This document shows, piece after piece, positions 5,342 to 7,973 of a stretch of DNA of 32,403 nt (its first letter is position 1; each line of letters opens with the position of its first letter). Made by a program: the position numbers and the translations under genes. This DNA is from Sphingopyxis sp. (lineage in GTDB: Bacteria; Pseudomonadota; Alphaproteobacteria; Sphingomonadales; Sphingomonadaceae). Where the stretch lies: NCBI GenBank assembly GCA_030655355.1, contig JAURVS010000131.1, positions 1-32,403 on the forward strand, in the 5' to 3' direction. Under the pieces are notes generated by a model. That model ran no database searches and was not told the origin of the DNA. It saw nothing but the letters and a program-made list of their open reading frames with translations.

Positions 5342-6793
5342 ATGGATAAACGCGAAGATTCCCTCCCGCCCGAGGACATCACGATCGTCGACGATCGCGA
5401 CCGCGAACCGCCGATTCGAGAAACCGAGACCGAGCTCGACGAGGATGACCGGCTGAGGCCGCAGTTCGTCCGCGACGTTCTCGAGCTTGCCGAAGCCGGC
5501 GAAGGGGAAGCCGCGCGCGAGCGGATCGGCCGCCTTCATCCTGCCGATATCGCCGATTTGTTCGAGCTGGCGCGCAGCGATGAGCGCCCGATGCTTGCGG
5601 CCGTGCTGGGCGACATGCTGTCCGCCGACGTTCTGGCGGAAATGAACGATTATGTTCGCGAAGAACTGATTGATCTTCTCGCGCCCGAACAGGTCGCCGA
5701 ACTCGCAGCCGAACTCGATACCGACGATGCCGTCGCGATCATCGAGGATATGGAAGCCGACGAGCAGCAAGCCGTGCTCGACGCGATGGAGCCCGAAGAT
5801 CGCGCCGCGATCGAGGACGCTCTCTCCTTCCCCGAGGAATCCGCCGGTCGCCTGATGCAGCGCGACCTTGTCGCGGTTCCCGAACATGTGACCGTCGGCG
5901 ACGTCATCGACCGGCTGCGCGAAGACGTCAACATGACGACCGATTTCTGGGAAATCTATGTCGTCGATCCGATGCACCGCCCCGTCGGCACCTGCCAGCT
6001 GAGCTGGATCCTCCGTACCCCACGCGATATCCCGATCAGCGACGTGATGAAGCGCGAACAGACGCTGATCCCGGTCGACATGGATCAGGAAGAAGTGGCG
6101 CTGCGTTTCCAGAAATATGCGCTGATATCGGCCGCGGTCATCGACCGGTCGGGCCGTCTCGTTGGGATGATCACCGTCGATGACGTCGTGCATATCATTC
6201 AGGAAGAGGCAGGCGAAGATATCCTCCGCCTTTCAGGCGCGGGCGACGGCGACATCAACGAGCCCATCCGCGAAACCTACAGCGCGCGGGTCCGCTGGCT
6301 GATCGCCAATCTCGGCACAGCATTGCTCGCGTCATCCATCGTCGGATTCTTCGGCGGCGCGATCGAGCATATGGTCGCGCTCGCCGCGCTGATGCCGATC
6401 GTTGCAGGCGTCGGCGGCAACGCCGGGACGCAGACGCTGGCGGTCACGGTGCGCGCGCTTGCAATGAACCAGCTGACAGATTCGAACAGTTGGCGCGCCA
6501 TAATGCGCGAGATGAAGATCGCGCTGCTCAACGGCGGGACCATCGCGCTGATTGCTGGTACCGCTACGGCGCTTTGGTTCAGCAATCCGCTGCTCGGCGT
6601 CGTTATTGCCGCGGCGATGGTCGTAAACATCTTTGTTGCGGGTGTCGCGGGTGTCGCCATCCCTCTTCTTCTCGATCGGCTCGATCAGGACCCCGCGGTC
6701 GCGAGTTCGATTTTCGTGACGATGACGACCGATTCCATGGGCTTTCTGGCCTTTCTTGGCCTCGCGGTGCTCAGCGGGCTCACAATCCTCTAA
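5342..6793 (+). CDS. mgtE: Magnesium transporter MgtE
   Basis: A 483-residue inner-membrane Mg2+ channel of the MgtE family with the standard order. An acidic N-terminal tail (about residues 1-40) leads into the helical MgtE N domain, rich in ADIADLFE- and LAAELDTDDA-type repeats. Two CBS domains follow (about 165-285, GRLVGMITVDDVV near the end), then a five-helix membrane domain with the pore signature VGGNAGTQTLAV and a late TTDSMGF segment whose Asp corresponds to the pore-lining acidic residue of the family. The N and CBS domains sense cytosolic Mg2+ and close the pore. GGGAGG is 11 bases upstream of the ATG. It stands alone between the cyclophilin gene and an A8/T8 inverted repeat. Confidence 0.95.
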   Translation: MDKREDSLPPEDITIVDDRDREPPIRETETELDEDDRLRPQFVRDVLELAEAGEGEAARERIGRLHPADIADLFELARSDERPMLAAVLGDMLSADVLAEMNDYVREELIDLLAPEQVAELAAELDTDDAVAIIEDMEADEQQAVLDAMEPEDRAAIEDALSFPEESAGRLMQRDLVAVPEHVTVGDVIDRLREDVNMTTDFWEIYVVDPMHRPVGTCQLSWILRTPRDIPISDVMKREQTLIPVDMDQEEVALRFQKYALISAAVIDRSGRLVGMITVDDVVHIIQEEAGEDILRLSGAGDGDINEPIRETYSARVRWLIANLGTALLASSIVGFFGGAIEHMVALAALMPIVAGVGGNAGTQTLAVTVRALAMNQLTDSNSWRAIMREMKIALLNGGTIALIAGTATALWFSNPLLGVVIAAAMVVNIFVAGVAGVAIPLLLDRLDQDPAVASSIFVTMTTDSMGFLAFLGLAVLSGLTIL

Positions 6794-6831: not shown

Positions 6832-6860
6832 AAAAAAAATGCATTGAAGCGATTTTTTTT
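6832..6860 (+). terminator. A8...T8 inverted repeat, possible mgtE terminator
   Basis: AAAAAAAAT (6832-6840) pairs with ATTTTTTTT (6852-6860) around an 11-base centre that contains a short GC/GC pairing. The uninterrupted eight Ts at the end fit transcription termination after mgtE, though the stem is A/T-rich and weak. It abuts the GGAAC element of the next promoter. Confidence 0.45.
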
Positions 6861-6861
6861 G

Positions 6862-6887
6862 GGAACTTATCGAACATTTCGGTCGTT
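6862..6887 (+). promoter_or_regulatory. EcfG (general stress response) promoter motif
   Basis: GGAAC at 6862-6866 and CGTT at 6884-6887 are separated by 17 bases, matching the alphaproteobacterial EcfG consensus GGAAC-N16/17-CGTT. The predicted transcript start (about 6893-6896) coincides with the first base of a perfect hairpin. The next coding sequence is the entericidin lipoprotein, a gene class often linked to stress and stationary phase. Confidence 0.7.
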
Positions 6888-6893
6888 TTCCAT

Positions 6894-6988
6894 TCGAGCA
6901 GCGGTCATCGCCCCCCCGCAGCGCTGCTCAGCAACATTGGCCCGGCCCGCATTCCCTCCCCCCCCTCGAAGCGTGCCGGGCCATTTTG
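6894..6988 (+). ncRNA. Candidate small RNA or structured 5' leader with two C-rich loops
   Basis: Two perfect stems follow the EcfG motif. Stem 1: GAGCAGCG (6896-6903) with CGCTGCTC (6922-6929); its 18-base loop contains seven Cs. Stem 2: TGGCCCGGC (6938-6946) with GCCGGGCCA (6975-6983); its 28-base loop contains a CCCTCC tract and further Cs, then ATTTT follows. Stem-loops exposing C-rich, anti-Shine-Dalgarno-like loops are typical of alphaproteobacterial trans-acting RNAs such as Caulobacter GsrN (EcfG-dependent) and the suhB/MmgR family. Termination after stem 2 is weak (only four Ts), so it may be the entericidin leader, a processed sRNA, or both. Ends are approximate. Confidence 0.5.
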
Positions 6989-7012
6989 CAACTTATCCTG
7001 AGAGGTAGAATT

Positions 7013-7141
7013 ATGACGAGTTACCGCGCAATCCTTCTCGCCCTGATGGCAAGCTTTCTGGTCGCTGGCTGCAACACGGTAAAGGGTGCCGGTCGCGACA
7101 TCGAATCTGTCGGCCAAGCCGGCAGCGATGCTATCGACTAA
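7013..7141 (+). CDS. Entericidin A/B family lipoprotein
   Basis: A 42-residue protein with a lipoprotein signal peptide: MTSYR, a hydrophobic core, and lipobox LVAGC with the acylated Cys at residue 20. The mature ~23 residues begin CNTVKGAGRDIESVG, the hallmark entericidin sequence. Entericidins are tiny membrane lipoproteins associated with stationary phase and programmed lysis (EcnB toxin, EcnA antidote in enteric bacteria); the role in sphingomonads is not established. AGAGG lies 7 bases before the ATG. It is preceded by an EcfG-like promoter and structured leader and followed by a terminator inside the convergent tatC gene. Only one entericidin gene is present here, so no toxin-antidote pair is visible. 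Confidence 0.88.
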   Translation: MTSYRAILLALMASFLVAGCNTVKGAGRDIESVGQAGSDAID

Positions 7142-7163: not shown

Positions 7164-7973
7164 CTAGGCCTCTTCGAGAGGCTCGACAGGCGCCTCTTCG
7201 GCGCCTGTTTTGCGTCGGCGCTGCGTAAACCAGATCGCAAGCAGCGACATTTCATACAGGAACACCAGCGGCACCGCGAGCAGGAGCTGGCTCAAGATAT
7301 CGGGCGGCGTGAACACCGCGGCGATCGCAAAAGCGGCGACGATCATATAGCGTCGCGCAGAAACCAGCTGCTCGCGCGTCACCAGGCCCGACCGCTCAAT
7401 GAGCATCAGCAGGATCGGCAGCAAAAACGCGATGCCGAACGCCATGATGAACTGCATCGTGAAGCTCAGATAATTGCCGACGGTGGGCAGTGCCTCTTGC
7501 GTGATCCCGCCGACATTACCCTGATAACCGAGCAGGAATTTGAGCGCGATCGGGATGGTGATGAAATAGGCGAAGCTGGCGCCGATCGTGAACAGGATCG
7601 GCGTCGCAAGCAAAAAGGGCAGAAGCGCACGCTTTTCCTGTTTGAACAGGCCCGGCGCGACGAATTTCCACAGTTGGTTCGCGATCACCGGAAAGGCGAT
7701 CATCATTGCCGCGAACAGCGCGACTTTGATCTCGACGAAAAACGCTTCGAACAGCTGCGTATAGATCAGCTTCCCCTGCCCTGCTCGAACGAGCGGCTGG
7801 ACGAGAATCCCGAAAATCGGCTTCGCATAATAAAGGCAGACGCCAAACGCCAAGCCGATCGCGAGCAGTGATTTAAGCAGGCGCGATCGCAATTCGATCA
7901 GATGATCGAGCATCGGCATCTTGCCGCCAGCGCCATCTTCGTCGCCATTGGCCACCGGAATCTCTGCGCTCAT
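7164..7973 (-). CDS. tatC: Twin-arginine translocase subunit TatC
   Basis: A 269-residue inner-membrane protein with about six hydrophobic helices. It has the TatC signature MLDHLIELRSRLLKS near the N-terminus (after a ~20-residue acidic/Gly tail) and the FVAPGLFKQEKR loop of the family. TatC recognises the twin-arginine signal peptide and, with TatB, forms the substrate receptor for export of folded proteins. Its ATG overlaps the tatB stop by 4 bases (ATGA), so translation is coupled. The last codons (EEAPVEPLEEA) encode, on the opposite strand, a hairpin that looks like the entericidin terminator. It is the last gene of the argS-to-tatC operon. Confidence 0.96.
   Translation of the reverse strand: MSAEIPVANGDEDGAGGKMPMLDHLIELRSRLLKSLLAIGLAFGVCLYYAKPIFGILVQPLVRAGQGKLIYTQLFEAFFVEIKVALFAAMMIAFPVIANQLWKFVAPGLFKQEKRALLPFLLATPILFTIGASFAYFITIPIALKFLLGYQGNVGGITQEALPTVGNYLSFTMQFIMAFGIAFLLPILLMLIERSGLVTREQLVSARRYMIVAAFAIAAVFTPPDILSQLLLAVPLVFLYEMSLLAIWFTQRRRKTGAEEAPVEPLEEA
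7186..7211 (+). terminator. Intrinsic terminator for entericidin, embedded in the tatC 3' end
   Basis: ACAGGCGCC (7186-7194) and GGCGCCTGT (7200-7208) form a perfect 9-bp stem with a TCTTC loop; the T run spans 7208-7211. It lies 45 bases past the entericidin stop, within the antisense of the tatC C-terminal codons. A second smaller hairpin (7168-7182) precedes it. Confidence 0.65.

Follow-up and report, generated by a model that had tools for sequence, protein, structure and literature searches.

A conserved RNA element with two C-rich hairpin loops and a sigma-EcfG-type promoter in the Sphingomonadaceae

GsrN of Caulobacter, as described in PMC5869019, is a small RNA (sRNA) that is activated by an EcfG-type sigma factor and has an exposed C-rich 5' loop and a 3' intrinsic-terminator hairpin. 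Its C-rich loop pairs with katG mRNA, it co-purifies with other mRNAs, and it is processed to a stable 5' isoform, with the full-length form stabilised by Hfq (PMC5869019). Most gsrN homologues lie near ecfG, nepR or phyR, with C. crescentus as an exception, and the same paper names no apparent gsrN-like gene for the outgroup Erythrobacter litoralis (PMC5869019). The actinobacterial 6C/B11 family (RF01066) has two loops rich in C, of which one belongs to the terminator; the terminator loop of B11 pairs with G-tracts near ribosome-binding sites and is the only loop shown to be active (PMC12395582). CcsR/cuckoo RNAs are stress-related alphaproteobacterial RNAs transcribed together with a small protein gene, with an RpoHI/RpoHII promoter and a DUF1127 gene ahead (PMC10253847). 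SuhB of Sphingopyxis granuli TFA is a trans-encoded RNA of 61 nt that is conserved in Sphingopyxis and linked to growth rate and catabolite repression (PMC6563040).

Here we describe an RNA element in the window, the whole 32,403-nt stretch of Sphingopyxis DNA that was analysed, together with its relatives in other genomes. The element probably encodes a ~95-nt sigma-EcfG-driven sRNA whose C-rich loops pair in trans with G-rich stretches of mRNAs. A preliminary description of this DNA had proposed an unannotated C-loop sRNA of GsrN-like design, which now looks likely given conserved stems and loops and an EcfG-type promoter; the original observation is confirmed and is larger than first reported. 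We class the RNA apart from GsrN, as a new sRNA family whose functional kind is already known.

The element and its comparison with known RNAs

The element combines a promoter motif, two hairpins and a short T-rich tail ahead of an entericidin gene (Table 1), whose product passes the Pfam gathering cut-off for PF08085 (26.6 bits against 23.3). The two perfect hairpins with C-rich loops were rightly reported. Their loops carry the C-runs GCCCCCCCG and CCCUCCCCCCCC, and they are the only hairpins on either strand of the window that combine a perfect 8-bp stem with six or more consecutive loop Cs. Dinucleotide shuffles of the window (n = 100) yielded 0.1 such hairpins on average, and no shuffle placed two of them within 120 nt of each other. 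Folding of 6894–6989 gives −44.3 kcal/mol (z −5.2; none of 200 shuffles as good), and folding with flanks (6892–7030) gives z −3.1 (1 of 200 shuffles as good). In the predicted fold of 6894–6989, UUGC of the tail can pair with the GCAA that precedes hairpin 2.

Table 1. Coordinates of the element and its neighbours in the window.
Feature	Position	Strand	Description
mgtE	5342–6793		Ahead of the element
Sigma-EcfG-type promoter	6862–6887	+	GGAAC-N17-CGTT, from sequence; GGAAC 6862–6866, CGTT 6884–6887
Hairpin 1	6896–6929	+	8-bp perfect stem GAGCAGCG/CGCTGCTC (6896–6903 with 6922–6929); loop GTCATCG-C7-GCAG, C7 at 6911–6917
Hairpin 2	6938–6983	+	9-bp outer stem TGGCCCGGC/GCCGGGCCA (6938–6946 with 6975–6983) and inner CGC/GCG; loop with CCCTCC (6954–6959) and C8 (6958–6965)
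TTTTGC tail	6984–6989	+	Probable leaky intrinsic-terminator end of the putative sRNA
SD-like GAGAGG	7000–7005		Ahead of entericidin
Entericidin EcnA/B family small lipoprotein gene	7013–7141	+	Pfam PF08085; read-through from 6862 probable, co-transcription putative
tatC	7164–7973		Opposite strand to entericidin

The promoter motif fits the sigma-EcfG consensus GGAAC-N16/17-CGTT and its variants GGTT, TGTT and CATT (PMC7083833). The pattern GGAAC-N15–17-CGTT occurs three times in the window against 1.02 times per shuffle, and by itself is weak evidence. Judged from promoter spacing, transcription would start near 6893–6896. A coding reading was also considered. Among genus loci the C-run of loop 1 varies between 6, 7 and 8 Cs, and hairpin 2 between 29 and 33 in inner length; because this length variation keeps no frame, the coding reading, including a 54-aa TTG frame over the element, was set aside.

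Like GsrN, the window RNA combines an EcfG-type promoter with an exposed C-rich 5' loop, and GsrN target sites include CGGGGGGC and GGGGGCG (PMC5869019), which are complementary to the G-C6–8-G core of loop 1 here. Unlike GsrN, it lies beside entericidin and tatC, and both of its loops are C-rich; in the window it is directly flanked by mgtE, entericidin and tatC rather than by ecfG, nepR or phyR. The likeness is one of design, with homology unproven. Erythrobacter litoralis, the outgroup mentioned above, is a member of the Sphingomonadales.

No Rfam family reached its gathering score in the window or in 20 relatives, so the suggested suhB/MmgR membership was not borne out, and no match of any family appeared up to E 0.1 in six relatives. 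The sub-threshold matches in the window were to ar14, Scr3202, 6C and six others. The alphaproteobacterial sRNA model ar14 (RF02344) also has a terminator hairpin besides one with a C-rich loop, but the window scores 31.0 bits against a gathering score of 58.8 (E 0.00017 in a 171-base search) and the model's first hairpin falls on the promoter. The 6C family, which shares the two C-rich loops, belongs to a different phylum, and the window reaches only 18.7 bits where the gathering score is 47. The CcsR/cuckoo RNAs resemble the element in their stress-related setting and small protein gene, whereas here the promoter is EcfG-type, mgtE lies ahead and entericidin behind. Loops of cuckoo RNAs carry CUCCUCCC, which is absent from both loops of the window RNA. 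TFA SuhB is likewise conserved in Sphingopyxis, but the window RNA falls below the Rfam thresholds. Searches of an open-access library turned up no description of the RNA; a dRNA-seq study of TFA (Garcia-Romero 2018) may list it. The terms sRNA, small RNA and ncRNA are absent from the main texts of two papers on the sphingomonad general stress response (PMC7083833, PMC6599016).

Conservation of the fold, the loops and the promoter

Window DNA was matched in 76 of 80 Sphingopyxis genomes; the alignment covers 70 of these and omits six whose matches were split or marginal. Identity, measured over these 70 loci as the mean share of the commonest letter per column, is 0.987 in hairpin 1, 0.996 in the linker, 0.969 in hairpin 2 (6937–6982) and 0.996 in the tail (6983–6989). 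In the promoter region it is 0.926 at 6862–6871, 0.590 at 6872–6882 and 0.941 at 6883–6890. It is 0.570 between the RNA and entericidin (6990–7012) and 0.859 in the entericidin coding region. The RNA, loops included, is thus better kept than the gene behind it, which indicates strong selection. Stem 1 is invariant in the genus and therefore uninformative for covariation there. Stem 2, in 46 of 47 distinct genus sequences (set A1, without the inverted-loop locus L069), has three pairs with two-sided changes, and 38 of the 46 leave one inner pair open.

Several features of single loci or of the flanks stand beside this pattern. One of the 70 genus loci, L069 (1126–1224, minus strand), carries the loop of hairpin 2 in inverted orientation, such that its C-tract reads as a G-tract between intact stem arms; this is either a template-switch mutation or an assembly artefact. 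In four genomes (G029, G038, G041, G042) the match to the region is split across contigs that end in or near the C-rich element; short-read genomes may under-report RNAs of this kind. A T-run directly 5' of GGAAC (6853–6861) is strongly kept in the genus, and 49 of 93 matches outside it have a run of at least four Ts within 22 nt upstream; this T-run is possibly an UP-like element.

Conservation among relatives, raised in the preliminary description, was found well beyond the genus. Three covariance models were run on 298 genomes of the family. R1, built from the genus, found a match in 19 of them; R2, built from 18 loci (five of the genus and 13 others), in 128; and R3, built from 100 matches, in 132, which represent 43 of 91 genera and mostly carry a single match each. 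The weakest R3 matches may have arisen by chance. When named genomes were searched by pattern, at least 120 stretches matched, and the genera among the matches listed are Sphingopyxis, Sphingomonas, Stakelama, Hephaestia, Sphingomicrobium and Sphingosinicella, besides unclassified records. R2 gave three matches in 241 genomes of the class, with few candidates scored per genome; one of them lies outside the family (G476) and has no GGAAC. In 119 genomes of the order, R3 gave 23 matches, of which one, a weak one, lies outside the family. Absences are soft because the genome searches score few candidates per genome. The tatC loci of 30 match-free genomes (29 from other genera and G059 of Sphingopyxis) gave only one R3 match, at E 0.43, and three of the 30 have the entericidin pattern behind tatC; for two of the match-free genera, g7 and g18, another genome has a weaker R3 match. 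Three loci from ~2 Mb genomes of g21 (L195, L198, L199) have a weak match with GGAAC at −31/−32, a T-run of seven and a lower G+C content of 0.44–0.48.

Across 100 aligned matches (98 distinct), all 21 modelled base pairs show two-sided changes, eight of eight in hairpin 1 and 13 of 13 in hairpin 2. The matches are related sequences, so these counts are not independent; six loci come from the genus, and L072–L076, L078, L080 and L106 were left out. In this alignment, which was fitted to the model and so favours the structure, 98.0% of paired cells can pair against 80.3% after shuffling, a level that none of 500 shuffles reached; the covariation score of 0.538 compares with 0.197 for shuffled columns and at most 0.100 for slid partners. 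A smaller alignment of 18 sequences, likewise model-fitted, gave 99.2% against 81.7%, and RNAalifold run on it returned the same 21 pairs. Single-sequence folds of four relatives gave z-scores of −6.7 to −7.7.

The loops are kept in a different manner from the stems. A C-run of at least five is present in loop 1 of 99 and loop 2 of all 100 matches. Six columns of the loop-1 run are 0.97–1.00 identical, and 87 of 100 loop-1 sequences hold the G-C6–8-G core; the loop-2 columns are less fixed (mean 0.62). Stems that vary by compensation around fixed loop bases are the pattern of base-pairing sRNAs. Near the position of the tail, 79 of 100 matches have a run of at least three Ts and 58 a run of at least four; the other 42 lack the longer run, and the T-run in Sphingopyxis is itself short (TTTT).

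Because the models start downstream of the promoter, the position of GGAAC tests them independently. Measured from the model start, the motif begins at −33 to −30 in 98 of the 100 aligned matches, in line with the EcfG-type promoter first noticed in the window, and on the opposite strand of the same stretches it occurs in four. The −10 box, 16–17 nt after GGAAC, is CGTT in 71, GGTT in 17, TGTT in seven and AGTT in three, with none of these in two; the frequent EcfG −10 boxes listed for Sphingopyxis granuli TFA are CGTT, TGTT, CATT and GGTT (PMC7083833). Among 32 weaker matches (set A6, counted after three antisense matches were dropped), 21 have GGAAC at the same place and 11 do not; those without it may be false.

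Entericidin, other neighbours and alternative readings

Entericidin is a frequent but not a constant neighbour. An entericidin-like protein is encoded within 600 nt behind the RNA in 87 of 132 loci, and tatC lies nearby on the other strand in 95; mgtE lies ahead in only five. The remaining 45 loci lack the entericidin pattern, an upper bound because the pattern is strict and some stretches are cut. In 12 loci from five genera (g59, g70, g73, g77, g85), tatC begins 28–105 nt behind the RNA and leaves no space for entericidin. Among the g73 loci (L081, L083, L092, L093, L094), tatC follows 32–53 nt after the RNA with no entericidin pattern, and the RNA persists without that neighbour.

Where entericidin is present, the gap that separates it from the RNA falls into two kinds. 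The gap is at least 60 nt in 75 loci, and 67 of these contain a second GGAAC with an EcfG-like −10 box, which is CATT in 55 of the 67. Controls gave one in 75 on the opposite strand and 0.63 per 75 in letter shuffles. The 12 loci with gaps below 60 nt have no second GGAAC in them, nor does the 22-nt gap of the window. Six of the 12 are Sphingopyxis and six come from g16, g47 and g82 (L183, L186, L188, L190, L191, L192; gaps 19–49 nt); the idea that the second promoter was lost only in Sphingopyxis was dropped on this count. In 69 genus loci, the distance from the hairpin-2 stem to the entericidin ATG is 13–36 nt; three of these gaps contain GGAAC, and they are too short for a whole promoter. 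Read from sequence, the sRNA and entericidin mostly appear as two adjacent EcfG-type units, and in Sphingopyxis and the six other short-gap loci entericidin is probably transcribed from the sRNA promoter. Expression of TFA ecnAB (SGRAN_1922) is given as 0.00 of wild type in a double ecfG mutant (PMC7083833), which fits this picture if SGRAN_1922 is orthologous to the window entericidin.

These arrangements bear directly on whether the element is a structured 5' leader of the entericidin mRNA, as the preliminary description had also considered. Such a leader would stabilise the mRNA or switch its translation and would not act in trans. The short distance to the ATG in the genus and the 12 promoterless gaps, half of them outside Sphingopyxis, favour a leader, and the reading may stand at most for such short-gap loci. 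Elsewhere entericidin mostly has its own EcfG-like promoter or was not found, and in the 12 tatC-close loci it has no room. A run of at least three Ts behind hairpin 2 in 79 of 100 matches also counts against a leader, as does the contrast between a variable ribosome-binding region before the ATG and fixed loops. The RNA is therefore most likely not simply an entericidin leader, and a leader with no trans action is rather unlikely. Pairing of the loop Cs with the AGAGG ahead of entericidin, suggested earlier, does not appear in the predicted fold and is unlikely as a conserved function because entericidin elsewhere mostly has its own promoter or was not found.

Two further readings do without both entericidin and mRNA targets. 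The two like loops with their persistent C-runs would suit a decoy for an RNA-binding protein or another G-rich RNA, although we know of no C-binding partner here. The precedents argue for mRNAs, with which both GsrN (PMC5869019) and B11 (PMC12395582) are described as pairing, and we regard a decoy as improbable. The hairpins might also be no more than a pair of intrinsic terminators, or be conserved as DNA, for instance as a terminator that serves convergent genes in both directions. They are GC-rich, GCAA and UUGC lie symmetrically around hairpin 2, and tatC stands behind on the other strand in 95 of 132 loci; the fixed C-runs, the spacing of the promoter motif and the presence of hairpin 1 would all be left unexplained, and this reading is very improbable.

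Proposed role in the general stress response

In the reading we favour, a trans-acting sRNA, sigma-EcfG would transcribe an RNA of about 6894–6989 in the general stress response, and its two GC-rich hairpins would expose the C-rich loops, with hairpin 2 doubling as the transcription terminator. The loop Cs would act in trans on mRNAs by pairing with G-rich stretches at or close to their ribosome-binding sites, and pairing would alter the translation or stability of these mRNAs, as with GsrN and mycobacterial B11. In Sphingopyxis, leaky termination would additionally give a combined sRNA–entericidin mRNA.

We searched the window's own genome for loop 1 in reverse complement, allowing up to three mismatches, and obtained 55 forward and 83 reverse matches; the loop-1 pattern read backwards, a control that is not composition-matched, gave 25 and 20. 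No convincing target and no clear match at a start site emerged from nine loop-1-complement sites (of 30 loci and 100 places listed), most of which lie in long open frames. Because G-tracts are too common in such genomes, this search cannot decide the matter.

More tentatively, the RNA might form a multi-target post-transcriptional arm of the stress response in much of the Sphingomonadaceae. As a two-headed anti-Shine-Dalgarno RNA sharing no ancestry with GsrN, it could reshape translation during stress, and in Sphingopyxis one promoter might yield the riboregulator and also, through transcription past the terminator, the entericidin mRNA. As a conserved and usually single-copy RNA, it is a candidate riboregulator for sphingomonads that is open to deletion tests, and its more than 100 sequences offer material for tracing how an sRNA and a neighbouring stress gene do or do not share one promoter.
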